Virus record (IMG/VR): IMGVR_UViG_3300042882_001169 | Location: 1 to 64,000 of that record | DNA length: 64,000 nucleotides | Reading direction: 5' to 3' (one strand) | Source: a virus | In this document: positions 19,801 to 47,100 of the stretch, one piece after another | How the letters are laid out: every line of letters begins with the position of its first letter | Numbering within the stretch: the stretch's first letter is position 1 | The notes under the pieces: generated by a model | The model's input: only the letters and a program-made list of their open reading frames with translations | Databases searched by the model: none | What the model was told of the DNA's origin: nothing | Program-made: the position numbers and the translations under genes

Positions 19801-20576
19801 CAATTTGTAAAAAAGTTACATGTAAGTGCCCTACTGTTTGTGAACCTGGTGCAGAAGTATCAACAATTGGTGCATGTGATGATGTTATACAAGCTGGTAC
19901 GCCTGGTTATGTAAATCAAAACCCATTAGTTTGTTTGTCAAGTTATACTTTAATTAAACCTGCAAGTAATTCAATAAGTAAAATTTGGAGACATAATGTT
20001 CGCACTGATAGTTTTGCAAATTACTATGGTGATGATTACCCTTGGGAAATTGAATATAGTGTTGTTACACCTAACACAATTACAACATTAAGAAATTTTG
20101 AATATACTCTTGATGTGTACAAGTATTATAATGATGGTAAAGACTTTAATCATATTCTTGATGAAAACTTTGACAGAGCCATCATTTTTAACTCTGAACA
20201 AAATAGTGGATTACTGAAGTTAAATTTAAAAACTAAAAACAATCCGTTGACATTGTTGACTTACCCTGTTGTAAACATTGACTCTATTGATATTCAATTT
20301 AGCAAAGAAGAAAACAAATTCAGATTCAATCAGTTTTATGATGTTACTGCAGACAGAGGTGAGTTTACTAACAACACTGTTCCAATGTGGATTACTGCTG
20401 CTGATGGTTATCACAAAATAATTAATCCTGCTTATGTTAACTATGCTAAACAACCATTGCAACATAAAAAGTTTAGACATTACGGTAATAAAATTATATT
20501 ACGTAAAAACATTAGTAATGATAGAAAAATGATTCTTAAATTTGTAAATAATAAATACTTGTTAAGTCCTCGATAA
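13875..20576 (+). CDS. Giant tail nozzle ('muzzle')-like protein with von Willebrand A domain
   Basis: A 2233-aa protein. The start (FIKGMQKDTTDVYVPDGVW, FNAINAINN, GAIGNEQSN) and middle (YRDEVYSFFIRWVYKTGARS, FHIPGRQA) match the style of the crAss-like tail nozzle, the distal tube that touches the cell. Residues 855-873 and 955-992 are hydrophobic and could insert in a membrane. Residues about 1520-1560, 1640 and 1960-2000 hold CPxGYTY...C motifs like EGF-type units. Residues 1740-1900 are a von Willebrand A domain with a full MIDAS: D1748-x-S1750-x-S1752, T1828 and D1867, suggesting metal-dependent ligand binding. It is longer than nozzle proteins I know of, apparently because of inserted domains. 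Its stop overlaps the next ATG. Nozzle role: probable; VWA call: strong. Confidence 0.7.
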   Translation: MAEETKNTGNPRLINSFIKGMQKDTTDVYVPDGVWFNAINAINNAHNGEAGAIGNEQSNLECSTFPYTVIGIIHKYKTEWVIFSTDNVNSEIGIFDEADCSYRTLVNDACLNFSTFNLITGASKENYDCSYSVYWQDNLNPDRVMNLDSDKIPYICYPQLVNVDKTWNNYTVTKAIPPNLCGTAVAPVSGGNQTVTTQHSLGPTFGVVTIDFCFFVQEDRMQVWFDADPNTDPPTLDTGCISTGPAGSGAGTPGVCPTCRCGDQAGEPSSISFNKFTTTDFCTVRITGNCIGNDPSTLWDYRVNCPVVTPETPPMPIISTGIFYINENNDLVEVPNLDYGQSITICVLEGSLDVTNIAEGYDVSEPGDVCLNINELIPDPDACGAECCTSQLDCDALRLHPLIQQPCVTVNKSQGSGQLNNGSYQAVIAYSENGIKLTDYSMPSNAQSLWDHTGMGGSIDIIVDNLDPNFDEYELVVIATINQQSVAKKIGYYSTTQRKVHLDLYNASLITVELSLIPLRKVIYEKSEKMFDIAGYLLRSGVTSQAFINYQPLANLIQTNWVAVEYPASYYWDGGHEVGYYRDEVYSFFIRWVYKTGARSASFHIPGRQATASDLVLLPISNPDLLINTRRRTWQVYDTSSITSTPAEDRPDGGVIVARGDMAYWESSELYPNNHPEIWGDLCNEPIRHHKMPSNETIHIHDTTGTRIIILGVEFTNIKQPVDNDGVPVEDIVGYEILRGSREGNRSILAKGMFNNMIQYDMQNTVTQKGLFQNYPYNDVTTTDPFLQSYNNTVNNNLQVQDTIFSFHAPENNLVRPYVGGGGHVKLYTEEIGLAEIYGIIPYKHPRFKFIHDDFFAVAVIVSTGIALLTLFGNQSVTTGSTGHSTYLGGETHQWGAPYGIGVENVLRTPGAAPGTGSYDTHLTTATAGGTANVIAGILQNNINAAANGAQSGSTGVINIAATIATIVVAGLTASYTFLQALQVCIDIMYEMINFHDCVIQLNSHSFYNSHANVVNTNVPGALQPSITRPIAPQGAKYVSSGLQDFNSTQRINNNNRNKFLAIQTQTSVPFTFNVDNSKQLIADPNNISKIYTQNTASYYGAIKVDYENQYGQLQAIVQIPTNSCVYSVNQNVLIPNSTSQIFGGDVYINRYTEKNTYYFFNTWLIDVPNGTEWNYKNYVNGPLPTYWLDSTRYDASRFDVALDWSAIIFPQFNFNSPGKYYDLDTRGQVNTGQLVNSSFYDSWMYLSFSGVRDFFTESELNVAFRDYGEEPWEKFYDPIGNSFTDLDTMFRSDLITRPIYYEYDLSLSASKLYSNFASWSNILPRDYDPTLYETCFQYLPRRVVYSLQQQEGLKRDNWRNYLQNNYRDFEGKISTIKTLNAQGAIILYEDIEPTQFVGVDTLQTQGGVKFTIGDAGLFQQNMQSLVNADDAFNYGTCISSKSAVNTPYGLFWVSQETGKVINYTGGGMNDISKDGMKYWFLENLPSPLLKKYPDFPLYDNVVEGISIQTVFDSQYDLLYFTKKDYKPTAEFDAIANCLVYVNGDGFYVNDSLCYGAAYIYNCPAGYTYNSVSGVCEKNVVTSICALDGFVYNPDTGFCENTQLDPPENSPASPCSEDCITNVEENTCTCIVRAPAVLGPVLTKIDIKEFLEEIRWTVSYDPKLKIWLSFHDWHPEWVMPSYDHFLTIKSGQSITPVCPPGYTFDPNTVQCVKTVSNTELAQVIISEVAATVTSNTFNCLLDIVIAMDWSTSTTQGGRIEAQRQFVHEFLTDPVIVAGMAGGFIQVGFTKWGDGTFVDSLNPNGFSMSNTVTVAQADAYYASAPSSGTDICLGMSHADTILTNRAASQLGDRFSDPNFRSVMLFMTDAAGSACNPSTAGPGGTEVGCQYQNLPKYDVYSIFCDDDSPIPPQPAIPSAITCSVTANQFNMVANGTFPNNTAAFIANAVAGTICDAPPTCSCPPGYTLIGACSETTPPICKKVTCKCPTVCEPGAEVSTIGACDDVIQAGTPGYVNQNPLVCLSSYTLIKPASNSISKIWRHNVRTDSFANYYGDDYPWEIEYSVVTPNTITTLRNFEYTLDVYKYYNDGKDFNHILDENFDRAIIFNSEQNSGLLKLNLKTKNNPLTLLTYPVVNIDSIDIQFSKEENKFRFNQFYDVTADRGEFTNNTVPMWITAADGYHKIINPAYVNYAKQPLQHKKFRHYGNKIILRKNISNDRKMILKFVNNKYLLSPR

Positions 20577-23500
20577 TGGCAGCAAATAGAGAAATATTGA
20601 TGAAGTTCATCACAGGTCAAGCTCAAAAAGTACGTGAAGACGTATCCAGACAAGGATACAAAGACGATTCTCCATATAGAAATAATTCTTCCAATACTAT
20701 TTATGGTACACCGGAAGGAACCTCTATTACAATGGAAGGTGTGAGCACTCCTCTTATAGGTATAGATGAGTTTGGCAACAGACAAGAAATGTTTCCTGGA
20801 CAAAGATATGAATATCCTGGATCGCGCGTGATTGAAACACCTATGGCAAAATATGGTGGTTTACTTAATAAGACTATAAAGTGTTCTAATTGTGGTTGGT
20901 CGTGGAAAGCTGCAGATGGAGGTAATGATGTTACTACTTGTCATAAATGTGGTAATGAAAATACAATAATGCAAGACGGTGGCGAAAAAGATTTTAACAA
21001 AGTAAAAGAATGGTTTAACAATTACATAGACTCGCCATTATATAAAAGAAATTTAGAAAATTCAGGATACCTTGATGTTGACAAAGTAATTAATCAAAGA
21101 AAATCAAATGTAGGTAAAACAGAATATGTATATGATGAAAATAGACTTGGTACATATTATCAACCTAACACTAACACAGTGCATCATGCTCCTGAAAAAG
21201 ATTCTGAAATATGGTCTAAAGAATATGAAAGTGTTTTGCCACAAGATACTGTACTTGCACATGAGTTTGGACATTCTGTGTTAGATGATAGTAAATCGTT
21301 TTTTGGAAAACAAACACCTGGTTATAATAGATATGATTATGAGCAGTTGCAAACAAGAAACAAAGACAGAAAAATATCAAGAGGTGCTAATGAAAATTAT
21401 GCTGATCAAAAAGCATTGCAGTATGAAGCTGCAAAACTTGGTATTTATAAACCTGGTTTTGAAGAATTTACAAAAGAGCATTTAGATAAATTACCTGTTC
21501 ATATAAAAGACAGAGCTTTAAAAAACTATTCTGAAGAAGATCTTATATGGTTAATGAATAACATTGCTCAAAATAATAATAACACTAATGACATGCTGGC
21601 TGTTGCTCAAGAAGGTGGTGAACCAAGTAGTACATTAGAAGGACTTACTGATGAAGAGCGACAAAGAAAAATAGAAGAAAATACTACATATCAATTAGAG
21701 AATATAAAAAAGGTACGTGAAGAAGAAAAAATAAAAGAAGAGGAAGCTAAAAGAAAAGCGCAAGAAGAACACAATGCTTTTATTAAAAAGAACTTTAATC
21801 CGGATGCTGTAGAAAAAAGAAAAAATCTTTTTGATAAAGTTGTAAGTGAAAATGAATATCCAAGTACTTTCTTTCATGAAGAATGGATGAACTCACCACA
21901 ATATAAAAAATTACTAACAGAATCTACAGTAGAAAATAATTCTTTTGATTTATATAATGATATAAGAAATAGAAATTTACAAGAACTAAAAGGAAAAAAA
22001 ATAAACACATCTGAAGACAGTTATAAACCTGGAGCAGTTGCTTATTTTAGTCCAGAAGAAAGAACTATTAATTATCCATTTGACAGAAATGAATTAGATA
22101 CTTTAGGTGGTAACTTTTCCAATGATTTTAATAGAGGTGTTGCTGTACATGAAAAAAGTCATTTTATAGATAATCTATTTGCTGAAGGTCAGAAAAAATT
22201 TAGATTAAATAGTAGACTACTAAGAAAAGAATTAAAAAACAGAGAAGATGATGAAGTTTCTGCAATACCTCTAAAAGATGTAGACTTAATAAATTCATTA
22301 AAAGTTCCAAAAACAGATGATAATAAATTTAAGTATGACTATTTTACAGAACCTACAGAAGTACGTGCAAGATTAAATGAGGTTAGAGATAACTTGTATA
22401 ACAGTGGTAATAAAGAATTTTTAAATAGAGAACTTAATGAAGAAGATTTAAAATCTTTATATAATGATATTGACTTAAATACAAATCAAGGTTTTAAAGA
22501 CTTAAATGATTACTTTGGAAAAGAAGGTACATTAAAATTATTGAACTCTGTTAGTCAAAATGATAACAATCTTAATAATCAAATGCCTGTTGCAAAACGT
22601 GGTGGTACTTGGTTTGGTAATGCTGATATGATGTCTGTTAGTAATAAGTATCAAGAAGCAGGAACTGTAACATCTGAAGAACGCAAGCCGTATATGGGTT
22701 ATCCACCTGTAAATGGTAAATGGTTAGGTAATAAATTAACCAAAGAAGGATACATAACATCTACTACTAAAGGTGGTAACAGAATTTCTTTTACAGGCAA
22801 TGTTAGAGCAGATGATTGGATTAATAAACAAATTGATTCAGGTAAGTTTGGTTTTGATCCTGCAACAGGAGGAACTTTTCCTTTAAAAAAACCTGTAAAG
22901 GGATTAAGCAAAGAAGATCAGTTTATAGGAAGTAGAACATTTGATGATTTACAAGCACCACAAGGATTTACAACTGAATCTCAAGAGGCGCAAATTAAAA
23001 AATTACCTGAATGGCAACAAGATATTATCAATGAAGTAAATACAAAACGTAGAAAAGCAGTAGTTAGAGATCAATGGGATGAAGTATATAAAAGTCCTTT
23101 ATGGTATGCACCAGGTGTTATAGCTACTGGAGGATTAGGTCTTCTTGGTTTAGAAGCAGCAGGTGCTGCAGCTGCACCATATATTACAGGAGCATTAGCA
23201 ACTCAACTACCTGGTATGGCAGCTGTTCCTGGAGCAACTGTTGGTAATGCTATTACAGCAGGATTTGCAGGACATGGTTTGGCTAATGTTGGACCTGATA
23301 CTGTAGAGATGTATAAAAATCCTAACTGGAGTAATGCAGGTTCTTTAGGCATGGATATTTTAGAAATAGCACCTATTGCTGGACCTGCTGCTAAAACTAT
23401 AGGTGAAGGATTATCTGCTACAAGAAAAGCGTTAGGTACAGAAGAAGGTTTACTATCTAAGTTTAAACCTAAACAAAATTATACTTTACCTGAATATATG

Positions 23501-25816
23501 TCTTTAGAAGCACCTAAAGGTAATATGTATGGAGAGAATCAAGTTTTAGTACAACAACAAAGATTATTGAACCCTGATATAAAAGCTAAATTTTTTGAAC
23601 ATCAAGCACCTGAATTTGTACCTTCTAAACCAACAAATAGTTTATTAAATTTTGAAAAAAGTCCTAAAGATTTTGGTAATAGAATTACACCTGAAAATTA
23701 TGAAGATTTTGTAAATCGTATACATGGATCTACAGCATATGATTTTGCAGCAAGTTCAAGTAAAAAACCTGGAAATTTAGGAGTAGGTAATTATGATATG
23801 CCTGGTAAAGTTTTTAAAGATGCACCATTAAATCAATTAGGTAAAGATATTATAAATGCTCATGAAAAAAATCATGGAATATTTGCAGGAACTTTATCAA
23901 AAGAAATGCAAGAAGCTTTATTAAAACCTTTTGGTACTAAAAAAGCAGTACCTCATTATGCTGCTAAACATCAAGCAGATGAAGTTTTAGCAAGAATGGC
24001 TCAATTTAAAAATGCTGTTGGTATAGGAGATAATCAAATATTTACTTTAGGACATCTAAATTTAATACGTAAAAATTATGCTAAACAATTTTTAGATAAT
24101 AGTATTACAGAGATGTTAGCTAAAATAAAACCTGGAAGTGCTGGAGAAAAAGAATTTTTAAAAAATATGAACAAATATGCTTTTGGAGTAACAGGTGCAG
24201 GAGCATTAACATATAAAGCTTTGCAAGAAGAAGATCCTAAATATAAACAAGGAGGTCTTATTGAGTATCAAGAAGCAGGAACTGTAAAACCTACAAACAC
24301 TTCTGACAAAAATACTCACACCAGAGAAATGGCTCAAAGAGTTGTTCAACTTGCAGAAGAAAGAATTAGAAATAATAACTATGTAGATGTACCTAAAGAC
24401 ATTGAAGATATTGCAAAAGCAAGAGGTGAGTCAGCGTTTAGTTGTATAGGTGGTGTATGTACAGTTTTAAAAGATGCGGGTGTAATGGACAGAGTTGATT
24501 GGTCTAATACACATTTTTCTGAACATGCAAAAGAATACGGTTTTACAGCAAATCAAGGATGGGGTCTGAAAGGTATTCAAAATTTAGAACCTGGAGATGT
24601 ATTGCAATATAACAATAAATCAAATGAACAAGGTAATTATTATCCAGGACATTCTCAAATTTATTTAGGTAAAGATGCAAGTGGTCAACTTAGATTTTTT
24701 GATAATTTTTGGGGAACTGAAAAAACATATTTTGAAAGTGAAGTAAAAGATTTGCTTGATAGTTCAAGAAAAAAAACAGAACCTTCAGCAACTATTTATA
24801 AAGTTAATCCTTATAATGATTCTAATCCGTGGGGATTAAGTCCAGAAGCTTTACAAAATTACAAAGACAAACAAGAATTAATAGAAAAAGAATCAAAATC
24901 AAAACAGTCTTATATATGGAGTGTTGCAAAAAATGCAAAAAATTATAATGACACCACAAAACGTGTCATAGATAGTTTTATTGAGTACGCAAATGACAAT
25001 GATAAAATAAACGATCTTGTTAAAAAAACAGGAAAATCAAAAGCAGAAATACATGATTCATTGTTAAATGTGTTTGGTGAACTTGGTGCAGAAAACAACT
25101 GGACAACTTCTAAAGGAAAAGGTATTGGTTCACGATTAGAAAATATTGCTGAAAGTGTTATTACTGCATTTGGGGGTGGTAAGAAATTATCAGTTGGACC
25201 TGGTCAAATTAAATACGCATTTATACCAAAAGATTTAAAAGAAAAATTTAATATTAAATCTTCAAATGATTTATATGACTTAGATAAAGTTTTACCTCTT
25301 ATGACAGCTTTAGATTTAAGAGATAAACAAGTTTTAGAAAACTGGGGTAAAAACAATACATTGAGTAAAAAATTATTTGGATTTACAAATCCAGTTGAAA
25401 CAGAATGGATCGAAGGACAAGGTAGTGTTCCTATAAGTGGTGGATTTACTGTAGAAGATTTACCATCTTATAATAATAGTGATTCAACATTAAACCATGG
25501 TGTGGGTAGATACTCGCCTTATTTAAGAAATCAGTATTCATCTATTTCTTCAGGAACCACATGGGAAAACGGTGATGACTGGTTGCCTTTTAATGAAGGA
25601 ACAATGACAAATTATTCACCTGCTGAAAATAATAAAAGTGGTAAAGAAGAAATGCGTGTAAAATACGAAAGAGATCCTGGAAGTTATCCTTATAAAGTAG
25701 AACAAAATTGGAGAGACAATCTTGACAGAACAATGTATACAACACAACCAAGTGGTAGTCCTCAAGAACTTGATGAAGTTATCATTGAAGCAATAAGAAA
25801 GAAAAAAACATCATAG
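20576..25816 (+). CDS. Multidomain envelope-penetration protein: zinc ribbon, three zincins, NlpC/P60, lysozyme-like
   Basis: A 1746-aa protein. Order: zinc ribbon about residues 102-132 (CSNCGWSW ... CHKCGNEN); zincin 1 with H229-E-F-G-H233; Lys/Glu coiled coil 360-410; zincin 2 with H525-E-K-S-H529 and a distal TEVRARLNEVR helix; hydrophobic stretch 843-905; zincin 3 with H1096-E-K-N-H1100 and a distal DEVLARM helix; NlpC/P60-like cysteine peptidase (FSCIGGVC with C1290, GHSQIYLG with H1359); lysozyme-like domain (GELGAENNW with E1502/E1506, SVGPGQIK at 1539-1546). Zincins 1 and 2 each begin with EW(F/M)NxxxxSPxYK and end with NNxNxMxVAxxGG, so they are a tandem duplication. Linkers YQEAGTV occur at 692 and 1231. 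Likely virion-borne, degrading peptidoglycan and proteins at entry. Stop is TAG. Confidence 0.75.
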   Translation: MAANREILMKFITGQAQKVREDVSRQGYKDDSPYRNNSSNTIYGTPEGTSITMEGVSTPLIGIDEFGNRQEMFPGQRYEYPGSRVIETPMAKYGGLLNKTIKCSNCGWSWKAADGGNDVTTCHKCGNENTIMQDGGEKDFNKVKEWFNNYIDSPLYKRNLENSGYLDVDKVINQRKSNVGKTEYVYDENRLGTYYQPNTNTVHHAPEKDSEIWSKEYESVLPQDTVLAHEFGHSVLDDSKSFFGKQTPGYNRYDYEQLQTRNKDRKISRGANENYADQKALQYEAAKLGIYKPGFEEFTKEHLDKLPVHIKDRALKNYSEEDLIWLMNNIAQNNNNTNDMLAVAQEGGEPSSTLEGLTDEERQRKIEENTTYQLENIKKVREEEKIKEEEAKRKAQEEHNAFIKKNFNPDAVEKRKNLFDKVVSENEYPSTFFHEEWMNSPQYKKLLTESTVENNSFDLYNDIRNRNLQELKGKKINTSEDSYKPGAVAYFSPEERTINYPFDRNELDTLGGNFSNDFNRGVAVHEKSHFIDNLFAEGQKKFRLNSRLLRKELKNREDDEVSAIPLKDVDLINSLKVPKTDDNKFKYDYFTEPTEVRARLNEVRDNLYNSGNKEFLNRELNEEDLKSLYNDIDLNTNQGFKDLNDYFGKEGTLKLLNSVSQNDNNLNNQMPVAKRGGTWFGNADMMSVSNKYQEAGTVTSEERKPYMGYPPVNGKWLGNKLTKEGYITSTTKGGNRISFTGNVRADDWINKQIDSGKFGFDPATGGTFPLKKPVKGLSKEDQFIGSRTFDDLQAPQGFTTESQEAQIKKLPEWQQDIINEVNTKRRKAVVRDQWDEVYKSPLWYAPGVIATGGLGLLGLEAAGAAAAPYITGALATQLPGMAAVPGATVGNAITAGFAGHGLANVGPDTVEMYKNPNWSNAGSLGMDILEIAPIAGPAAKTIGEGLSATRKALGTEEGLLSKFKPKQNYTLPEYMSLEAPKGNMYGENQVLVQQQRLLNPDIKAKFFEHQAPEFVPSKPTNSLLNFEKSPKDFGNRITPENYEDFVNRIHGSTAYDFAASSSKKPGNLGVGNYDMPGKVFKDAPLNQLGKDIINAHEKNHGIFAGTLSKEMQEALLKPFGTKKAVPHYAAKHQADEVLARMAQFKNAVGIGDNQIFTLGHLNLIRKNYAKQFLDNSITEMLAKIKPGSAGEKEFLKNMNKYAFGVTGAGALTYKALQEEDPKYKQGGLIEYQEAGTVKPTNTSDKNTHTREMAQRVVQLAEERIRNNNYVDVPKDIEDIAKARGESAFSCIGGVCTVLKDAGVMDRVDWSNTHFSEHAKEYGFTANQGWGLKGIQNLEPGDVLQYNNKSNEQGNYYPGHSQIYLGKDASGQLRFFDNFWGTEKTYFESEVKDLLDSSRKKTEPSATIYKVNPYNDSNPWGLSPEALQNYKDKQELIEKESKSKQSYIWSVAKNAKNYNDTTKRVIDSFIEYANDNDKINDLVKKTGKSKAEIHDSLLNVFGELGAENNWTTSKGKGIGSRLENIAESVITAFGGGKKLSVGPGQIKYAFIPKDLKEKFNIKSSNDLYDLDKVLPLMTALDLRDKQVLENWGKNNTLSKKLFGFTNPVETEWIEGQGSVPISGGFTVEDLPSYNNSDSTLNHGVGRYSPYLRNQYSSISSGTTWENGDDWLPFNEGTMTNYSPAENNKSGKEEMRVKYERDPGSYPYKVEQNWRDNLDRTMYTTQPSGSPQELDEVIIEAIRKKKTS

Positions 25817-25818
25817 TC

Positions 25819-28389
25819 ATGGCATCAAAAGGAAACAAATTTATATTGGAAAAATTTATTTCTAATAATCAATTGCAAAAAGCACAAGACGGAGTTGAAA
25901 CATGGAAAAAACAACAAGCACTTGTAGCTAAAGAAAAAGCTGGAAAACTAAAAGAGTTGTTAGAAACACCTTTGGTTTTTAAAACTAAAGAAGAAAAGTT
26001 AGCTGAAAAAATGCAACAAGAAAGGTATAGAATTATTCCTAAAGACAATACTGTTGTAAGAAATTATAATAATGTTGCTAAACATTCTAATGTTGCAAGA
26101 AATAAAACAGACAAAGAAATTGCAGATGAAAGAAAAGCTGTAAGAAAAAAATCTGACGCAAATGTTTTAAATCAATATTCTACAGAGTTATTTGACGGTG
26201 ATAACTGGACAAGAGAAAATCTTGCTGAAGGTGCGCAAGGATTAGAATCAAAATTTAGAGTTTCAGATGAACCAAACTTTTTTGATGACTGGTTAAATCC
26301 TGCAAACATGATAGGCAATATGGCGTCTAATTTAGGACAAGCACCTTTACAAGCACAACAATCAGATTCATATTTACCGTATATTACAGCTATAGGTACA
26401 CCATTAACTGTGGGAGCACTCGCTGGATTAGGAACAAGTTCAAATGCACAATTTATAAATAATTTAACAAATCCAATTGCAGGATTTGAAACATCAATAG
26501 GAAATTTTGCAAAATCAAATTTTAATAAATTAAAACAAATTGGTAAAAGAACTTTTACTCCAAGTCGTGAAGTAGATTTAAGTGGTATTGAAAGATTAAG
26601 TGGACAATTAAGAGAATCAAATGTTGAAGCAAACTTAATTGAAAAAGTTGGGAATGATATTAATTTTTCACATCAGGATTACATGTTAAATAAATATCCA
26701 GATGTACCGGTTACTGAAAACTACATTAATCTTATTGAAAATCAAGAACTCAATGAAATTAATAAAAATAGAATAACTGATCTTGCTGAACATTGGGTTT
26801 ATGAAAATCCTGCTCAAAGAGTTGAGAATCAAAAAATAATGGAACAATTAGATCCTCTTCTTGAACAACAAAGACAAGAAGCATACGGAATTTTTAACAT
26901 GAGTAGAAAAAACAAACTTGATCATGTAAATGAAAGAATTAAAATTATACAAAATGATGCAGAAACAATTCAAAACAATATTGATGTTGGAGCTAACAAG
27001 TTTATAGAAAAATTGCAAAATAAAGCAAAAGATGATCCTAATTTTATAAATGAATTATTAGAACAAAGAAAACAACTTGAAGAAGCAATTACAAAATACG
27101 GTGATGAATTTTTTGGTGATACTAAAAATCCAAATTTTAATAATCTTACTGAAGAAGAACTTAACGCAGCGCATCTTGAGATAAAAGCAAAAAGAGATAA
27201 TCTCAGAAATGAAATTCAAGGTGTAAGAGATCAGGTTACACCTGCTAAACTAAATCCAGCATTTGAAGAAAAAATAAAAGATTTATATATGTATGCTGAG
27301 GAACCTATACCTGCAAGCATAAACGATGTGTTTCCTGTTGAAAAAGGAATGAGAGAAAGAAACAGAGTTGTGTATCCAAGAGCAATTCCTGAATCAGTTT
27401 CAGATTTGAACAAATACGAATTAGATAAATTATTAGATACTCAAAAAACTGCTTCAGGTGTTAATCAAGGAAGTTACGGTAATACAATTTCATTTGGTGA
27501 AAATTCTTATTCATTTGAAGATTTAAAAGCACTTTATGATGTTAACTATGAAAAAGCTCCTTTTAAATTATCTGAACCATCTACATGGTTTGGTAAAAAG
27601 ATGAATCGTGTTGTAGATAATAAACCATCAGAATTTGTTAAAAATATTAAAATTCGTGATGTAGATCCTGAAAAACTTTTTCATACAATTGGTCATGAAG
27701 TTGGTCATGATTTTCAAAAGTTTGGTAGTTGGGGAGAACTAATTGCAAAATACTTTGACAATATTGAATATTTCTCAAATCATGGTGAAAATAATTTATC
27801 AAGAGCATTTAAAAAACACATGGTTGAACCAAATGGATGGGATAGTTCATCAGCATGGCGTAGCAGTGGAAATGAATTACATTCTGATTTAGTAGCAGAA
27901 AGATTTAAGATAATAGATAAATTAGATCCTGATCCTAAAAAAGCTGTTGAAATGTTTAGAGCAAACGAAGATGCTTTTACAGAACAAATAGTTGAAAGTG
28001 GAGTTTTAGATAAATTTTTTAAACCTGATACACCTCTCAATATTAAAAAGGAATTAGCAAAAATTTTACCAGTTGCAGTACCTGCTGCTTTAACAGTAGG
28101 TGCAACAGTAGGTGCAAAGAATCAAAATGAATCTGAACAAATGCCAACACAAAAGTATGGTGGTAATCAATCACATTTTAATTTTGAAAAATATGCAATG
28201 AAAGAAATGGGTGGAATGATGTACGCAAATAAAGATGCAGGATTGCCACACGAACAGTCAATGCGAAAATATTTAAGTGCACAAAATAATCTTTTAGATT
28301 TTATGAAACGTGTAAAAGTTGTTGGTGGTCCTGTACCGTTTGATGAATATTATAGAGAAAACATAATAAATCCAAGAAATAAATCGTAA
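25819..28389 (+). CDS. Virion-associated zincin metallopeptidase-like protein
   Basis: An 856-aa protein that starts 2 nt after the preceding stop. Its N-terminus (FILEKFISNNQLQKAQDG) parallels that of the 1746-aa neighbour (ILMKFITGQAQK), hinting at a shared packaging signal. Long helical and coiled-coil regions cover residues 330-460. The zincin motif is H626-E-V-G-H630, followed about 75 residues later by ELHSDLVAERFK, the likely third-ligand helix. A hydrophobic segment (ILPVAVPAALTVGATVG) at about 755-772 precedes a QKYGG linker and an MGGMM stretch. The arrangement of zincin, hydrophobic helix and GG motif repeats that of zincin 3 in the neighbour. Substrate unknown. Confidence 0.7.
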   Translation: MASKGNKFILEKFISNNQLQKAQDGVETWKKQQALVAKEKAGKLKELLETPLVFKTKEEKLAEKMQQERYRIIPKDNTVVRNYNNVAKHSNVARNKTDKEIADERKAVRKKSDANVLNQYSTELFDGDNWTRENLAEGAQGLESKFRVSDEPNFFDDWLNPANMIGNMASNLGQAPLQAQQSDSYLPYITAIGTPLTVGALAGLGTSSNAQFINNLTNPIAGFETSIGNFAKSNFNKLKQIGKRTFTPSREVDLSGIERLSGQLRESNVEANLIEKVGNDINFSHQDYMLNKYPDVPVTENYINLIENQELNEINKNRITDLAEHWVYENPAQRVENQKIMEQLDPLLEQQRQEAYGIFNMSRKNKLDHVNERIKIIQNDAETIQNNIDVGANKFIEKLQNKAKDDPNFINELLEQRKQLEEAITKYGDEFFGDTKNPNFNNLTEEELNAAHLEIKAKRDNLRNEIQGVRDQVTPAKLNPAFEEKIKDLYMYAEEPIPASINDVFPVEKGMRERNRVVYPRAIPESVSDLNKYELDKLLDTQKTASGVNQGSYGNTISFGENSYSFEDLKALYDVNYEKAPFKLSEPSTWFGKKMNRVVDNKPSEFVKNIKIRDVDPEKLFHTIGHEVGHDFQKFGSWGELIAKYFDNIEYFSNHGENNLSRAFKKHMVEPNGWDSSSAWRSSGNELHSDLVAERFKIIDKLDPDPKKAVEMFRANEDAFTEQIVESGVLDKFFKPDTPLNIKKELAKILPVAVPAALTVGATVGAKNQNESEQMPTQKYGGNQSHFNFEKYAMKEMGGMMYANKDAGLPHEQSMRKYLSAQNNLLDFMKRVKVVGGPVPFDEYYRENIINPRNKS

Positions 28390-28439: not shown

Positions 28440-29966
28440 ATGAGTAAAACTTGTCACGAATGCGAAAAAAATAAATTTGTATTACCATACGAATATTTTG
28501 CAAATCCATTAACTGTTTTAGAATATGGTGGTGATTTATATCAAGCACAGCAGGGTGGAGAACAGCAAAAACAAATTATGCAAATAATTGCAATGTATGC
28601 AAAATTGCACAATGCTCAACCTGAAATGATTATTCAGAAACTGCAACAACTTGATGAGTCACAACAGCAACAAGCATTACAATATATGGTTGCAGAATTA
28701 CAACAAGGTGGTGCTGGACAACAACAGTCAGCTCCAACATCTTACGCAGCTAATGATGAGTTTAGTGAAATGGAAAGCATGCCACAGTTTGCACCAGGTG
28801 GTACAAACAGTTATAGTCAAACAGGTGGTGCTGGTTATAGAGGTGCTGCAGGTGGTGTTGGTGGCGTTCCATATATTGCACCTGCTCTACAAACATCAAT
28901 TGGAGATTCAAAATTTCTTGGTCCACTGAAAGCTGTTACTGGTTACATGGGACTTGCGGCAGGTCTTGGTGCATCTGCATTAGGGTGGGGTAAATCTGCA
29001 CAATGGTTAGGTAACAAAGTATTGCCAGATGGTGGGTTAAAAGATGGTTTTAATGGTGTAATGGATACTGCAAATAATACTTTTAAAGGTATTGTTGATT
29101 TTGGTGTAACTGCTGGTGGTATTTCTACTAATGGTCAAAATTCTGCTAATAGACAAGCAGCTGCTAATAGAAAACAACCTGTTACTTTTCCTACTCAAAA
29201 TCCTGTAGTTAAAGGTGCAGCTGTACAAAAAGCAGACTCTACTAAAATACCAATTAATCCAGAAGATGAAGGTTACAAACCTGATTTGATTAATAAATAT
29301 GGTAGATATCTTCCTAAACATCAAGGAACCACTGGTTCAAGTACTGTTGGTGGTGGTGACGGTGGTATGGGCAGTGGAGAAGCAGGAATGATGATGAATG
29401 ATGGATCTACTGATTACAATGAAGGATACTTTCAAGCATATAAACAAGACAACAATGCTTATAATGCAGATCCTAATCAATGTCCACCAGGAAGCGAATG
29501 TGATAAAGCAAAAAAACAACAACAACAACCGCAACAACCTGCGAAGAAAAAAGCTAACCCAAATGCTGGTGCTGGTGAAGGTGAAAAACCTTTTAATGGA
29601 ATGGAATATGCACAAAAAGGACTCATGGGACTTGGTGCATTTAGAGATTACAAAACATGGCAAAATGACCAAAAAGAAAGAGACGAATATGAAAAGATGT
29701 TAGAACGTGTTGGTAATACTGATTTTAGACTTGCTTCAAACAGTCCTAATCCATTTGGTGATTATACATTAAATGTTGGTCCTGCAAATAATTTCCAATT
29801 AGGCATGACCACTCCTGTACAAGATAGTGGTACTTATGGAAGATACGGTGGTTCATTCAAATATGGTGGTCAATCATATAAAGAAGGTGGTGAATATCAA
29901 GTATCAGAAGACGAGTTATTACAACTTATGCAGAATGGTGCAGAAATAGAATTCATTAATAAATAA
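28440..29966 (+). CDS. Gln/Gly-rich putative ejected cargo protein
   Basis: A 508-aa protein. A CxxC pair near the N-terminus is followed by YGG and QGG motifs, then a helical segment (IMQIIAMYAKLHNAQPEMI, then QQLDESQQQQALQYM) of a kind common in crAss-like tail cargo proteins. A Gly-rich middle with a hydrophobic helix (GYMGLAAGLGASALGW) follows. Residues about 290-325 contain GRYLPKHQGTTGSSTVGG, which recurs in the next gene. The end (YGGSFKYGGQSYKEGGEYQVS then an acidic helix and AEIEFINK) looks like a conserved terminal tag in this protein class. Probably packaged in the virion; mechanism unknown. Confidence 0.55.
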   Translation: MSKTCHECEKNKFVLPYEYFANPLTVLEYGGDLYQAQQGGEQQKQIMQIIAMYAKLHNAQPEMIIQKLQQLDESQQQQALQYMVAELQQGGAGQQQSAPTSYAANDEFSEMESMPQFAPGGTNSYSQTGGAGYRGAAGGVGGVPYIAPALQTSIGDSKFLGPLKAVTGYMGLAAGLGASALGWGKSAQWLGNKVLPDGGLKDGFNGVMDTANNTFKGIVDFGVTAGGISTNGQNSANRQAAANRKQPVTFPTQNPVVKGAAVQKADSTKIPINPEDEGYKPDLINKYGRYLPKHQGTTGSSTVGGGDGGMGSGEAGMMMNDGSTDYNEGYFQAYKQDNNAYNADPNQCPPGSECDKAKKQQQQPQQPAKKKANPNAGAGEGEKPFNGMEYAQKGLMGLGAFRDYKTWQNDQKERDEYEKMLERVGNTDFRLASNSPNPFGDYTLNVGPANNFQLGMTTPVQDSGTYGRYGGSFKYGGQSYKEGGEYQVSEDELLQLMQNGAEIEFINK

Positions 29967-30059: not shown

Positions 30060-33000
30060 ATGTACAACATTAGAATAAAACAACTTCCAAAAAATGGTGA
30101 TCAACGTAACTACAGTTTAGTTGATAGAAATGATTTATATATCAAAGTAAATCCAATTAACCAAGACAGTAATGTCAAAAACACTATCAGTGCAGTTCCA
30201 CGTGAAGAAGCTAATATAGAAGCTGAAGGTGGAGAAACTGTAATCGGTGATATCAACAATGATGGTTTTTTAGAACATAGTAAAATTGTTGGTAAAAGAC
30301 ATACTGAAGGCGGTGTGCCTCTTAATGTTGCACCTGGTTCATTTATATTCTCTGACACAAAAAAGTTAAAGATTAAAGATCCTGAAGTACTTTCTATTTT
30401 TGGTATTACCAAATTTGACAAAGGTGGTGTTACACCAGCAAAGATTGCACAAAAATATCCTATGAATAACTACATGAATATTCTAAAGGATGATGCAACA
30501 GATCCTGTATCAAAGCGTACTGCTTCTCAGATGTTAAAAAATAATCTTGAGAAACTTGGCATGTTAGCATTGGTGCAAGAATCAATGAAAGGATTTCCTG
30601 ATGGAGTACCTGCAATTGCACAATCTGTTATGGCAGGATTGCAAGGACAAGGTGAGGGTATGCCTGAAGAAGCAATGGAAGGTAGAGAAGCTGCTGGAGA
30701 AGAAGGTCAAATGCGTTATGGTGGAATGGCTATGTACCAAAAAGCAGGTACAGTTAAACCAAAACCAAAAGCAAAACCTAAACCTGCAGCACCTGCTCCT
30801 GGTACGTTTTATATAAATGGTAAACCGAATAGAATTGTAAAAACTTATGAAGGGTTCTTTGATGTTGATAATGATAGTGATGGAGATGATGCAAACGATA
30901 TGTGGGTTCAATTTGAAAAACCTATTCAAGTAATTGATGAGGATGGTAATCCTGATACAATGACTGAAATGACACTTTCTGATTGGAAAAAATTAACTGC
31001 AAAAAAGTCTCTTAAAATGGGATTGACAGATAATTTAATTCAACCAAATAACTATACAGATATTAGCAATCTTACTTGGTGGAATCAAGATAGATCTATA
31101 TTTGATATTGGTAGAGGTGTGAAATATAATACAATTAATTATTCTCCTACAGCTCCTGTTGCTACTGCAAAACCTGCAGTTAAACCACAAATGAAACCTG
31201 GATATACATTTACACAAGGTAACAAAAAATATAAAGTTGTTGCTTCTGATGTATACAGTCCTTATGGTTCAGCAGCTGGTAATAGACAAGCTGTAAGTGT
31301 AGAACAAATTGATGATCCAGATCAAAACATTGGTTCTTTCTTTGATACTAAATTTGGCAAGAAGTTAATTCCTATTGACGAGTTTAACAAAATTGTTGGT
31401 ATAGCTCCAACCGTAGTTCCTGAAGCAGCTGCCGGTACTACACAAGCAGATGCTGAAACTGCTGGTGCAAAAGATTGGGTAGATACTGCTGAAGAAGAAG
31501 TAGTTGAAGAAGATACTCTAACAACAAAAGTTGTTGTAAAAGAAGATAACAGCAAACCTGCAGCAAAAACTGTAGTAACACCAAACACAAAGGTAACACA
31601 GCAACCTGCTAAAAGAGTTTCTGGTAAAATGCAAACATTTCCAAAGTTTATTATACCAAGTGGAAAGTTTAAAGGTCAAGAAGGTTCTGCTGTTAAAATG
31701 GGTGATACAATAAGAATTTTTTATCCAGACGGAACGCATGAAGCTTTTATTAATGGTAAACCGCTTCCAGGTTATAGACATGGTGGATATTTACCAAAAC
31801 ATCAAGGTGATACTGGTCCAAGCACAGTTGGCGATGCTTCTGGATCTTCAATGATGGATGATGGTTCATCAAACGGATTTTTTGGTGGTATAGGTGACTT
31901 TTTTAGTGACCTGTTTAGTGGTGAAGATAAATCAAAAAGTGATTCTGCAACTTCAACTTCCGCAACTCCATCTCTTGATCAACAAGCAATGGATGCTGTT
32001 GCTAATCCTGCAGCAACATCTGCAAGTACATCTGTTAATATTCCACCTGTTGCTACAAATACAAATGTTGCCAATCCTGAATTACCAGCTGAACTTGCAA
32101 GTTTATTTCCTGCAGATGCTGCACCAACTGCTGCATCTCAACCCTTTATGGCAACTACAGCACAAGGAATTCAAAATGGTTCTGTAGCAGCAGTTTCCAC
32201 AGGAGATCCTAATAAGCAAGTAATTGCAAATAATGATCCAAACTATGAATTTCAACCATCCAGTGTAAAAAGATTACCAAGTACTTCAAAAGAAAAAGCA
32301 ACATATGAAGACTGGAAGCCACAAAATTATGACAAAGTGTGGAAACCAAAAGCTCAACAAGCAATGTTAAATTCAGAAAGTGCTAAAGCAATTGATGATT
32401 ATTTAACCAATGTTGCAGCTAAAGGTAAATATGGTCCAAACATACTTTATCAATTACAAGGTTTAACAGGTCAAGCACGTTATGATAAGATATTAGAACT
32501 TGCTACAGATGGTGATCCAGGTCCATTTCACAATGCTTTCTTAGAAGCAATGACTGCTAAGAAACCAGAAGACAAACCTGAACCAATACCAGAGAAAAAA
32601 AGAGCATGGTCATGTAGACAAGATCCTGTAACCGGTGTAAAAGAAATATATCAATTTGAATATGAAGGAGAGATGCCTGCAGGTTCTTACAATACACGTG
32701 AAGAAGCTGAAGCAGGATGTAATGGTAAACAAGAAGTAGTTGAAGAAAAACCAAAACCAAGAAGACCTTGGTGGATACAAGATGCAGTAAACTTTGCTGG
32801 TACACTTACTGACAATGTTGGTTATTATCCTCCTGCATTAACTCAAGTTGATTTAGAAACTCCTCGTTACGCATTGCTTGATCCTGATAGAAGAATTGCT
32901 GCGATGCAAGAAGCTGCTGCTGCTGATAGAGAAGCTGCATACAATACAACAGCAGGTAATGTTGCTGGTGCATCTCAAGTTGCGCCATCAAATCAAAGAC

Positions 33001-33650
33001 TTGGTCAAGCTGCAAATATTATTGGTGATGTTGAAAATCAAAATTCAAATATTTTTAATCGATTTTCTGGTAACATTGCTGGAATTAATAATCAAGAAAA
33101 GATTTTAAATGCAAACTCATTACAAAATTACATTGGTCAATCAGTAACAGCAAGACAACAATATGATAATGCCAGACGTGCATTAAAATGGAGACAGCTT
33201 GATGCTTGGAATAATGGTACTACAAACTGGCAAAGAACTAATCAGTTATCTGACATGTTTAATTACGATATTGATCGTAATACAGGTGATGTAACTTTTA
33301 AAGATGGCAGACAAATGTTTGATGCACAAGGTAGACCTGTGTATGATCCGTATATTAATCCTGCAGACCCAACTGGTAAAAATAGTAAATCAGGATATAT
33401 ATTTGAAGATCGAGTAAAATATTGGAAAAGTCAAGGTTTTAGTGCGTCAGACGCGATAGATGCTGCAAATGCAGAAGTAAATGGTAAAGCTGCTGTAGCT
33501 GATAATAAAACTGCTGGTCGTAATGCTATTCTATCTGGACAAGCATTACCTGCGCCAAGACAATCAAAATATGGTGGAAAAGTAAAAAAACAATATGGTG
33601 GTGTAGTATTTGATTTTGGTGCATTACCTTTATACTTTTTTGAAGATTAA
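30060..33650 (+). CDS. crAss-like cargo protein (PREEANIEAE family)
   Basis: A 1196-aa protein. Residues 45-105 contain VPREEANIEAEGGETVIGD, then KRHTEGGVPLNV and SFIFSDTKKLKI, a signature I associate with crAss-like phage virion proteins expressed just before the RNA polymerase. A YQKAGTVKPK linker at residue 226 matches linkers of the 1746-aa protein. A Pro/Lys-rich stretch follows, then beta segments, then GGYLPKHQGDTGPSTVG at about 575, shared with the preceding gene, and an Ala/Thr/Pro-rich low-complexity region. A small Cys pair module (AWSCRQDP ... EEAEAGC) sits near 860-895. The end is YGGKVKKQYGG. Likely ejected with the genome. Confidence 0.65.
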   Translation: MYNIRIKQLPKNGDQRNYSLVDRNDLYIKVNPINQDSNVKNTISAVPREEANIEAEGGETVIGDINNDGFLEHSKIVGKRHTEGGVPLNVAPGSFIFSDTKKLKIKDPEVLSIFGITKFDKGGVTPAKIAQKYPMNNYMNILKDDATDPVSKRTASQMLKNNLEKLGMLALVQESMKGFPDGVPAIAQSVMAGLQGQGEGMPEEAMEGREAAGEEGQMRYGGMAMYQKAGTVKPKPKAKPKPAAPAPGTFYINGKPNRIVKTYEGFFDVDNDSDGDDANDMWVQFEKPIQVIDEDGNPDTMTEMTLSDWKKLTAKKSLKMGLTDNLIQPNNYTDISNLTWWNQDRSIFDIGRGVKYNTINYSPTAPVATAKPAVKPQMKPGYTFTQGNKKYKVVASDVYSPYGSAAGNRQAVSVEQIDDPDQNIGSFFDTKFGKKLIPIDEFNKIVGIAPTVVPEAAAGTTQADAETAGAKDWVDTAEEEVVEEDTLTTKVVVKEDNSKPAAKTVVTPNTKVTQQPAKRVSGKMQTFPKFIIPSGKFKGQEGSAVKMGDTIRIFYPDGTHEAFINGKPLPGYRHGGYLPKHQGDTGPSTVGDASGSSMMDDGSSNGFFGGIGDFFSDLFSGEDKSKSDSATSTSATPSLDQQAMDAVANPAATSASTSVNIPPVATNTNVANPELPAELASLFPADAAPTAASQPFMATTAQGIQNGSVAAVSTGDPNKQVIANNDPNYEFQPSSVKRLPSTSKEKATYEDWKPQNYDKVWKPKAQQAMLNSESAKAIDDYLTNVAAKGKYGPNILYQLQGLTGQARYDKILELATDGDPGPFHNAFLEAMTAKKPEDKPEPIPEKKRAWSCRQDPVTGVKEIYQFEYEGEMPAGSYNTREEAEAGCNGKQEVVEEKPKPRRPWWIQDAVNFAGTLTDNVGYYPPALTQVDLETPRYALLDPDRRIAAMQEAAAADREAAYNTTAGNVAGASQVAPSNQRLGQAANIIGDVENQNSNIFNRFSGNIAGINNQEKILNANSLQNYIGQSVTARQQYDNARRALKWRQLDAWNNGTTNWQRTNQLSDMFNYDIDRNTGDVTFKDGRQMFDAQGRPVYDPYINPADPTGKNSKSGYIFEDRVKYWKSQGFSASDAIDAANAEVNGKAAVADNKTAGRNAILSGQALPAPRQSKYGGKVKKQYGGVVFDFGALPLYFFED

Positions 33651-44100: not shown

Positions 44101-47100
44101 GTTTGGTATATCAACAGAAGATATTGCAAGCATTGTTGATTTAGCAGCAATTGATGGAACTGTACTTGGTATGTTTAAAGATAGAGTTATCTATTTGAAT
44201 AATTCTATATTGTCAAAAGGTGTAGTATACCATGAGGCATTTCATGGTGTGTTTAGATATCTAATGTCTCCAGAACAAAGAGCAAAACTTATTGATGCAG
44301 TATCATCAAACAAAAAATACAAAAAAGCATTTACACCTGCAGCATTGAAAAAATTTGCAAGTGAAAGAAACTATGTATATGATTATGAGAAAATGTTTCA
44401 GTTAAAAGCTGAAGAAATTCTTGCAGATGGTTTCCAAAACTACATGAATAAAAATACAAAACCTCAAGGTCTTGTAGCACAGCTATTCGAAATGCTTAAA
44501 AGACTAATTGATATGTTTACTCAAAGAGGTAAACTTGTTGATAGTACATACAAAGACATTCAAAGAGGTTACTATAGTAGCAAGCAAATTCAGTCAAATT
44601 TATATGATGGTCAAGTTGCTTATGAAGTAATTGATGGTTTAAAAGTAATTGTAAAAGATAAAACATCTGCAACTGGAGTTAGTCAACAAGCAATGCCATT
44701 AAGTGCATCTGATCAAAGTCAGTTAGTAAACATGGTGACAAAATATGTTATTGAAAACACATCAGCACAAACATTTGAAGAAAAGTTTAAAACAGCACAA
44801 AGATTAATTCTTGATAAAGTATACAACCTTGATAGATTAATTGAAAAAAATCCAAATACAGAACAGTATCCAAACAGAGTACAAGAACTTATTAAAACAA
44901 AAGGTAATCTTATTTCACAATATCGATTTATGTTAGGAGCCAGAGCAACTGGAGAAACAATTTATGATTTAAACAACTCTGGTAATGCTGCATATGACAA
45001 AAGAATATTACCAAATAAAATACTGCAGTATGAATCCGATCCGTTAAACAACGATCTTGGACAAGTATCTCTTGAAAAATTAAAAAAACTTGTTAAGAAA
45101 AAATCACAAGAGTTATATTCTATATTAGACGGAACTGGTGAAACTCTTGATAAAGGACTTTTATTAAAAGAACTTGCTGGAGAAAATGAGAAAAAATCTC
45201 AAGTAGATCAAGACTACGAAGATGGTCAAGAAATATCTGATGACGTAAACATCGATGAAGGATTTGGTGAACACAACAGACTTGATTCAGCGCCAAGACA
45301 AATCAGAAGATTTCTTGCTATTATCAATTATGAAAAAGAAGAAGATTTAGGTATAACTTTTCCACGTGTAATTGATGGAGAAAGTATTTATGGTACTTTA
45401 TTAAAAATCACATCTGATGTATCTGTAGACAACATTATTAATCAGATACAAGTTACTGCTGATGTTTACAGAGAAGATGGTAAATTTAACGATGCTGCAG
45501 ATTTACAAGCTGTATATAATCAGTTAAAAGATTATACCGGGATGGATGAAAATGGTAATCCATCTTCTAACAGACAATTATATAACATGTTTGTTGACGT
45601 ACTTCACGGTACTGAAACAGAATATTTTATGATGATTGCCAGATTAAAAACAGGAGTATTTGAAGAAGAAGGTAATAATATTGAAAACTATACATTAGGA
45701 GATACTATTGTAAAAATGGATTCAAAAAATAAAAGAAGTAATATGATTGCTTCAATGATTACCACTCATGCTAAAAAAAGAAATGATCCTGAATACTTAG
45801 CATCTGTAAACAGATTGATTGAATTATCAAACACAATTATTAATAAAAAGATAATTCTTGGTAGTGCTGCAAAAGCAAATAATGATTTAGAAACTCTTAC
45901 TTTTGATTTATACAATGCCTTCAAAGGTGTCGGTATTGAATTACCAAAATCATTAATAAGAATGTCAATTTTAGCAATTGATAAAATAGACAATAATAAT
46001 AATGGATTATCTCAAATAGATAAAAAAACACTTTTACATTATGATGCTAATGCTTCTCTTATTGCTGATAAAGCGTTTTTACAAAAAGATTTGTTCTATG
46101 ACATAAGAGCAATATACAATACTGTTAAAAATGATTCTATTACTTCAAATGCATTTGGTAAAATGCTTGACGAAAACAATGATAACTTCAAGCGTTTTTT
46201 TAGTATTGCTTACAAATTTCAAAAATATATATTAAAATATGACGCTACTGATAGACCAAGTGTTGTAAGAAATGCTGCTGGTAAACCAGTATATCGTTAT
46301 ACAAAATACACACCGCTGATTTCAACTGCTCAAGCTTTTAGAAGAACAGGTTTAGAAAACACATTAAGAAAAGATCCTTATTATAATGATTTCTTAAAAG
46401 ATTTTTATAAAGATAATCCATTGTTTGCAGACTTGCTTGCCGGTAAAGACACAGCTGATGCAAAAAAAGCACAGCTTTTAATGGACAACATGAGAGTGTC
46501 TTTATTTGGAGGAGTGGCTCAGTTTAATAATCAGACATACAAAGATGGTAAAACATTTGGTAAACTTGATAAACAATCATTCCATGTAATGAGTATTTTA
46601 TCATTTTTGCAAAGAACAACTGTATCATCCACTGAAACAAAATTAGATGAAGATGGGAACCCAGAAGATGTTAGTACATCATTCCAGACATTCTTGCGTA
46701 CTTTTGACACACTTGAGGCATCTCAGACAAACTTTTTAATTACTTCTATCTACAAACCTTATGCAGATAAAACAGGTCTTTTAAAAGAAGGAAAACATTT
46801 AAAAATTGTTGCAGATCTTGAAGGCAAAGTAAAACAAGAATTTAACAGAATTAAAAAAGAATGGAACAGTAGAGTTGATAACAAATCAAACTTTGATTCT
46901 GGTAAATCAAATAGAATAATTAACAAGTACAATGGTGTATTAAGTAAAGAAAATGTGACAGAAGCAGACACTGAATCTGAAAACTTAAGAGCATATAACT
47001 TTAATTACTTACCATACTTTTTTGCAGCTCCTGAAAATGATACTTTAACACAAACATTAATAGGTTTAGCAAAAGATAAAAATATAAATTTTGAAGACAT

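Follow-up and report, generated by a model that had tools for sequence, protein, structure and literature searches.

Predicted zinc metallopeptidase domains in glycine-linked modular proteins of a crAss-like phage

What would a phage do with several zinc-peptidase motifs placed in two adjacent virion-type proteins? We analyzed a 64,000-nucleotide stretch (the window), positions 1 to 64,000 of the 70,963-base virus record IMGVR_UViG_3300042882_001169 in IMG/VR, in which HExxH motifs occur five times: at residues 229 (HEFGH), 525 (HEKSH) and 1096 (HEKNH) of the protein P0001, at residue 626 (HEVGH) of P0002, and at residue 1031 (HEAFH) of P0003, a giant of 3843 amino acids. We call these motifs and the segments around them z1 to z5, in that order. 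An earlier reading of the same DNA (the original prediction) had placed all five correctly, the fifth in the giant included; it proposed four zincin domains in P0001 and P0002 and took the five motifs for one set of injected peptidases or cargo-maturing proteases. The two proteins are as follows.

20576..25816, plus strand: P0001, modular virion-type protein of 1746 amino acids; open reading frame (ORF) after that of a muzzle-like 2233-residue protein
25819..28389, plus strand: P0002, companion modular protein of 856 amino acids; ORF whose modules are fused with P0001 modules in the relatives L013 and L018

We give slightly better than even chances to the reading that P0001 and P0002 would be ejected virion multi-enzyme proteins, built of interchangeable modules on glycine-glycine linkers, whose zincins would cut proteins of the host envelope or cell. 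Among 24 ORFs, HExxH was confined to those of P0001, P0002 and P0003 and absent from the remaining 21, whereas composition predicts about 0.27 occurrences in all 24 (sum of per-ORF values); 2000 shuffles of the 22 forward ORFs gave a mean of 0.22 and a maximum of 3. All five motifs are followed 40–70 residues downstream by E-x-x-(A/S)-(D/R/E), with E273, E595, E1136, E686 and E1092 as candidate third ligands. This pattern was picked after looking at the sequences, and since a random position in the three proteins has it within 20–110 residues in 24% of cases, we ruled it out as proof on its own. The third ligands proposed originally for z2, z3 and z5 fit; none had been named for z1, where the invariant residue is E273, and in z4 the glutamate E686 (NELHSD) seems likelier than the acid of SDLVAER.

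The strongest case is z1.

21002..21589, plus strand: z1 gluzincin domain, residues 143-338; HEFGH at 229-233, third ligand E273

Across 12 distinct z1 sequences, the window included (27–89% pairwise identity), H229, E230, H233 and E273 are invariant and stand among just 11 invariant columns of 212. An AlphaFold2 model of residues 130–690 (z1 and z2), run with 13 sequences, had a mean predicted local distance difference test score (pLDDT) of 55.4 and a predicted template modelling score of 0.40; in its z1 part, 15 of the first 20 ten-residue blocks reached a pLDDT of at least 80, the lowest block standing at 52. In model numbering, z1 shows strands at 54–57, 65–67 and 72–75, HExxH (100–104) within helix 94–106, and a helix (142–158) that carries E144, which is E273, near its start. 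VIA-align 2 placed model residues 1–203 on neprilysin over 172 residues (Z 9.8, 4.1 Å, 9% identity), a Z to be read against the 7–8 that models lacking any clear match typically reach at best. By name, 48 of the 50 rows shown are zinc peptidases; 6row and Certhrax, by title, are not. The first 25 Foldseek rows were zinc peptidases despite weak E values, and a profile search of PDB sequences returned four matches up to E 10 (best E 0.031), three of them named as M13 or zinc metalloproteases and the fourth, 4gaa ('MGC78867 protein'), being an M1-type hydrolase. The predicted zincin fold was thus obtained where the original prediction had looked for it, and by conservation and predicted fold z1 is a gluzincin, of the zinc metallopeptidase type. 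It resembles M13 peptidases (neprilysin, PepO, Zmp1) in predicted fold and in HExxH, and the ENxAD third-ligand motif of the window z1, with similar forms in relatives, is like the M13 motif. In contrast to M13 peptidases it spans about 200 residues instead of about 650, and because Pfam gave no M13 match at E up to 1 we did not file z1 under that family. No bacterial relatives of z1 or z3 were confirmed in genome contigs, searched in a collection pre-filtered by short patterns.

Could such a fold be structural or inactive, retained for shape or for channel building? Zincin folds that have lost activity exist elsewhere, and activity is here a prediction from sequence and model. Still, the four metal and catalytic residues belong to very few invariant columns, and the ratio of nonsynonymous to synonymous substitution rates in z1 lay between 0.09 and 0.49 in four comparisons, so that we consider this highly improbable. 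Peptidase activity of the zincins, as their sequences and the z1 model suggest, is what we assume below.

Three further segments of P0001 and P0002 bear the motif.

21830..22591, plus strand: z2, second zincin copy, residues 419-672; HEKSH at 525-529, ligand E595
23492..24202, plus strand: z3, HExxH module, residues 973-1209; HEKNH at 1096-1100, ligand E1136
27571..27918, plus strand: z4, putative zincin segment, residues 585-700; HEVGH at 626-630, possible ligand E686

By sequence, the z1 family is represented a second time in P0001, by its homologue z2: hhalign aligned z1 and z2 over 197 columns (95.1%, E 3.2e-8) with E595 opposite E273, and the z1 hidden Markov model (HMM) matches z2 at 1e-7. 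Relatives of z2 were found in L002 (97%) and L024 (26%), with a partial HMM match in g070 of phage phi14:2, and its ligands are kept in 3 of 3 rows, L024 at 26% identity among them. Its status as a zincin is well supported by the homology to z1. Neither z2 nor z3 nor z4 had a tblastn match in sequenced phages at E up to 1, although the z2 HMM does touch g070 (4.8e-8).

The relatives of z3 come from four IMG/VR contigs besides this one, two of which share one sequence over the z3 stretch, and H, E, H and E are invariant in the five rows (four distinct, window included), which are 73–74% identical to the window. It was modelled apart from z1 and z2 because MAFFT misplaced fragments of a joint alignment. 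The z1 HMM aligned to z4 with both HExxH and ExxSD matched up, but its 6.5 bits are at noise level: the score ranked second among 21 ORFs and 840 shuffles, and one shuffle reached 7.0. From these sequences z3 is probably, and z4 possibly, a zinc metallopeptidase domain. That both are chance HExxH motifs in non-peptidase modules, leaving only z1, z2 and z5 as zincins, is rather unlikely, if still to be reckoned with. Such an origin would suit z3, which showed no significant profile similarity to z1 or z2 in hhalign and whose model has low pLDDT, and z4, which lacks relatives; it sits poorly with an HExxH count far above chance, with the four z3 residues kept in four distinct rows (weak evidence at about 73% identity), with a touch of the z3 HMM on the zincin protein of phage cr108_1 at 190–237 (0.018, small set), and with the in-register alignment of z4 to z1. 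Direct comparison of z4 with z1 in hhalign gave 3%.

The four zincin domains proposed originally have thus come out unequal: z1 is well shown, z2 well supported, z3 plausible and z4 unproven. At least two zincin-type domains stand, z1 by conservation and predicted fold and z2 by homology, with homologues annotated as virion proteins from tandem mass spectrometry (MS/MS). The HExxH residues are kept in homologues of z1 and z5, and their retention in z2 (three rows) and z3 (four distinct rows of close relatives) is weakly supportive.

How are these domains arranged? P0001 and P0002 each consist of modules in a row, and glycine-glycine linkers mark the module edges. We mapped modules with HMMs on 27 proteins, 13 of which bear z1; besides the zincins, P0001 contains the following.

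20690..20863, plus strand: N-terminal ITMxGV module, residues 39-96, from the HMM map
20846..20983, plus strand: zinc-ribbon-like module, residues 91-136, with two CxxC pairs
22916..23455, plus strand: hydrophobic Gly/Ala-rich module, residues 781-960, common to L013 and L018
24296..24910, plus strand: NlpC/CHAP-like module by eye, residues 1241-1445; C1290 and H1359 invariant in 5 of 5 rows
24911..25390, plus strand: lysozyme/transglycosylase-like module by eye, residues 1446-1605; conserved in 5 of 5 rows

Neither protein matches a Pfam family at its cutoff, and we infer the nature of the C-terminal pair by eye. The parts held in common (the ITMxGV and zinc-ribbon-like modules, z1, z2, the hydrophobic module with z3, the C-terminal pair and the P0002 ends) recur among relatives in differing order. 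The ITMxGV module is also present in L002, L012, L013, L014, L018, L016, L026 and L003, and weakly in L005, and the zinc-ribbon-like module is found in relatives at different places. L002 has z1 and z2 without z3, L012 has z1 without z2 or z3, proteins of L003, L026 and L027 have z3 without z1, and in L013 and L018 parts of P0001 and P0002 lie in one ORF. Zincin content thus appears to vary among close relatives as if an injection kit were re-tooled for different hosts.

At the P0002 position, shared flanks enclose different HExxH modules: z4 in the window, HEINH in L013, HEIGH in L018 (40% identical to the L013 module) and HEATH in L014. Tried as relatives of the HEINH and HEIGH modules with hhalign, z3 gave nothing significant and z4 nothing. 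Polymorphic toxin systems combine conserved carrier parts with varied enzyme modules, and accessory zincins might likewise act as cytoplasmic effectors on host defence or regulatory proteins; unlike in those systems, delivery of P0001 and P0002 would be by the virion. The varied modules between shared flanks, further modules of unassigned identity in the same proteins and the hydrophobic stretches that follow several HExxH modules (by eye) speak for such a role. No homologue among known effectors or defence targets was found, however, and z1 often stands beside wall-cutting or wall-cutting-like modules (7 of 13 proteins); we regard it as unlikely. In the same proteins as the zincins, a module of about 230 residues ending in NKYGG recurs at protein residues 1007-1266 of L013, 520-775 of L014 and 1128-1286 of L003, the other two being 74% and 30% identical to that of L014. 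Ahead of z3 in L026 (706-836) and L003 (1880-1986, protein residues), a module looks ADP-ribosyltransferase-like by eye; these two had no Pfam match up to E 1.

Of 70 module edges in 17 proteins, 47 had GG no more than 20 residues beyond them, where circular shifts gave a mean of 11.2; with redundancy reduced to 12 proteins, the figures were 28 of 46 edges and a mean of 7.1, and 0 of 2000 shifts reached the observed count in either set. The first z1 segment had been cut at GG motifs, though HMM ends set the edges. The same enrichment would be expected if the glycine linkers or their surroundings were sites at which the zincins, either ahead of packaging or following ejection, split the giant cargo proteins of the phage itself into separate modules, a self-processing already proposed for polyvalent proteins generally in the accessible part of PMC5512222. 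Linkers at module edges are also explicable by recombination without cleavage, however, and the crAss001 protein gp45 is rich in such linkers though gp44–gp46 have no HExxH; the latter argument is not decisive, because the z5 motif is present in that phage's gp47. The virion RNA polymerase of phage N4 is packaged unprocessed, as that portion of PMC5512222 also describes, and we judge self-processing quite unlikely, favouring ejected peptidases that act on the envelope or host. YGG and QxGG linkers of the P0001 kind are found again in the next two window proteins (28440-29966 and 30060-33650) and in gp45, the cargo protein C1 of crAss001 (L059, 5988-8516), which suggests, from sequence, a cargo-wide linker type in crass-like phages. 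The two window proteins also have a YLPKHQG stretch in common.

One direct repeat, in two copies, bears on how modules come and go.

22642..22675, plus strand: 34-nucleotide direct repeat, left copy, in the linker YQEAGTV; 88% identical to the right copy
24259..24292, plus strand: 34-nucleotide direct repeat, right copy; the linker is single in L012

The z3 segment lies between the two copies, which form one of 48 repeat families at the setting used. L012 has its linkers in one copy each, and its sequence there runs on to the left into the flank of one window copy and to the right into that of the other; being single and continuous, they mark L012 as the site without z2 and z3, whether modules were gained in the window or lost in L012. 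Between the window and L002, synonymous divergence (dS) was 0.043 in z2 (6 synonymous changes), 0.147 in z1, 0.376 in the N-terminal part and 0.786 in the C-terminal pair. As one shared history would give more even values, we infer that modules have been exchanged by recombination. A further idea, that the slot between muzzle and main cargo genes in crass-like phages holds enzyme cassettes that recombine at glycine linkers which resident zincins also cut in the ejected chain, turning a single packed polypeptide into a host-specific mix of free enzymes within the cell, strikes us as very unlikely.

Do all five motifs belong to this exchangeable system? The fifth does not.

44231..44416, plus strand: z5, HEAFH (1031-1035) to E1092 in P0003; separate domain, shared with crAss001 gp47

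The z5 region of P0003 matches crAss001 gp47, and by this match P0003 is called a putative RNA polymerase giant. A 234-residue stretch around HEAFH matched 45 phage records, and 20 of the 30 listed are annotated as RNA-polymerase subunits. In a comparison of the window with seven phage proteins, from Steigviridae, Suoliviridae and one virus without a family, all eight sequences had HE(A/S)(F/W)H and, further downstream, E.(L/M/F)A(E/D).F; crAss001 gp47, cr112_1 and cr128_1 carry an RNA-polymerase annotation, and the remaining proteins are annotated as hypothetical, DNA helicase, DprA-like or structural. Being common to crass giant proteins, z5 is, on these sequences, an old part of them and independent of z1–z4. 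The claim that the five motifs form one set falls because z5 lies in a conserved domain that crAss001 gp47 and other crass phages also have, and because z2 and z3 are absent from the corresponding protein of a close relative. In gp47 and similar proteins, then, a putative peptidase motif seems to be conserved. In L055 (uncultured phage cr109_1), the z5-bearing stretch has in-frame stops under translation table 11, consistent with stop reassignment in that phage.

Would P0001 travel in the virion? By hallmark genes and gene order the window is from a crAss-like phage: it encodes a CrAss_Ring_1 tail-ring protein (Pfam scan, E 2.2e-11), its 2233-residue protein resembles the crAss001 muzzle gp44 (E 2.3e-4, small set) and phi4:1 gp42 (E 3.6e-48), and its gene order, compared by position, is similar to that of phi14:2. 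The zincin segment of P0001 is homologous to phi4:1 gp41, a 739-residue protein with two HExxH motifs that is annotated from MS/MS as a tail protein of the virion. In phi14:2, g070 (593 residues), directly after the muzzle-position gene g071, carries HEFTH and HEFIH and is likewise annotated from MS/MS as a tail protein. Both resemble P0001 in following a muzzle-position gene and in matching the z1 HMM; unlike P0001 they are short, without a significant match to z3 or the C-terminal modules, and their records carry no zincin label. The z1 HMM (7.3e-8) and a fold search of BFVD (4.2e-4) both picked up a 'morphogenesis protein' of the gut crassvirus cr108_1, in which HELTH is followed by a YGG linker and a lysozyme-like end.

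A virion location of P0001 is predicted from the database annotation of these homologues. There is also a segment that phi14:2 g070 and L022 share with residues 444-494 of crAss001 gp45 (28.3 bits; the next score, 4.7, was a shuffle): residues 425-552 of gp45 are portal-bound within the capsid, according to the accessible part of PMC10172136, which supports packaging of g070 and the L022 protein as ejected cargo. gp45 itself resembles P0001 in its place after the muzzle gene and its GG-type linkers, and differs in having no HExxH; its docking segment is the one shared with g070. The N-terminal module of P0001, tried as a relative of that segment, reached 0.5% in hhalign.

What, then, might the proteins do? 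In the reading that we prefer, P0001 and P0002 would be packed in the virion and ejected as strings of interchangeable modules on short glycine-glycine linkers, with z1 and z2 as gluzincin-type zinc metallopeptidases and z3 probably, z4 possibly, another. The C-terminal modules of P0001 would cut peptidoglycan, the zincins would cut host envelope or cell proteins, z1 lying next to the wall-cutting modules, and z2, z3 and z4 may be accessory parts fitted to particular hosts. PF18013 (Phage_lysozyme2) was found in phi4:1 gp41 (5.1e-32) and in L023, and 7 of the 13 z1-bearing proteins combine z1 with PF18013 or the P0001-type C-terminal pair in one polypeptide, which suggests envelope work during entry.

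Several results weigh against this interpretation. Six of the 13 z1-bearing proteins have neither the C-terminal pair nor PF18013, although two of these end at contig edges and L020 matches weakly and in part (0.0021). As z1 served as the query for most of the relatives, its frequency among them says little. The C-terminal modules of P0001 had no Pfam, NCBIfam or convincing PDB match, and a docking segment of the gp45 type was undetected in P0001 and P0002. Foldseek alone gave the z1 model no PDB match below E 0.001 (best E 0.031), a list by which no family is excluded. The AlphaFold2 models had low confidence for z2 (pLDDT mostly below 50) and z3 (mean 44.9). No z4 relatives were found beyond the window's own contig.

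The closest known kind is the polyvalent proteins of phages and conjugative elements, which in the accessible part of Iyer et al. 2017 (PMC5512222) have one to five zincin-like metallopeptidase domains, also hold lysozyme domains and other enzymes, and are thought to be delivered with DNA. The N4 virion RNA polymerase is described there as fused to a metallopeptidase, and both ideas of the original prediction, injected peptidases and cargo-maturing proteases, were already published there for polyvalent proteins. In phi4:1 gp41 and the L023 protein a zincin and a PF18013 lysozyme stand in one polypeptide; in P0001 two related zincins are supported and the wall-cutting modules are seen by eye only. 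Unlike polyvalent proteins, P0001 and P0002 fall below Pfam cutoffs, z1 aligns best with M13 catalytic domains, GG linkers stand at the module edges, modules vary among close relatives, and the context is crAss-like.

No paper on zincins in crAss-like virions was found in the literature searched, most subscription papers lying outside it. The part of PMC9853417 that was accessible names no zincin in a crAss virion; 'protease', 'peptidase', 'zinc' and 'cleav' are absent from the main text of PMC10172136, and 'protease' and 'peptidase' from that of PMC7886860. New with respect to that literature are a gluzincin in crAss-like tail or cargo proteins, an HExxH motif that proteins of the gp47 type conserve, and modules delimited by linkers, together with a naturally occurring empty site. 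These may bear on how crass-like phages pass the Bacteroidota envelope and on what their large virion cargo contributes. If the zincins are ejected peptidases, protein cutting would join wall cutting in this passage, and a defined element that varies among close relatives would make a link to host range testable, with phi14:2 g070 as a ready isolate-based model.

Elsewhere in the window, positions 62401-63951 on the minus strand, opposite to the genes above, match a ribonucleotide reductase barrel (PF02867, 2.4e-8). Before the tail genes, positions 10175-11443 have a weak metallophosphatase match (PF12850, E 0.0086), and phi14:2 likewise has an annotated metallophosphatase, g075, ahead of its tail genes.

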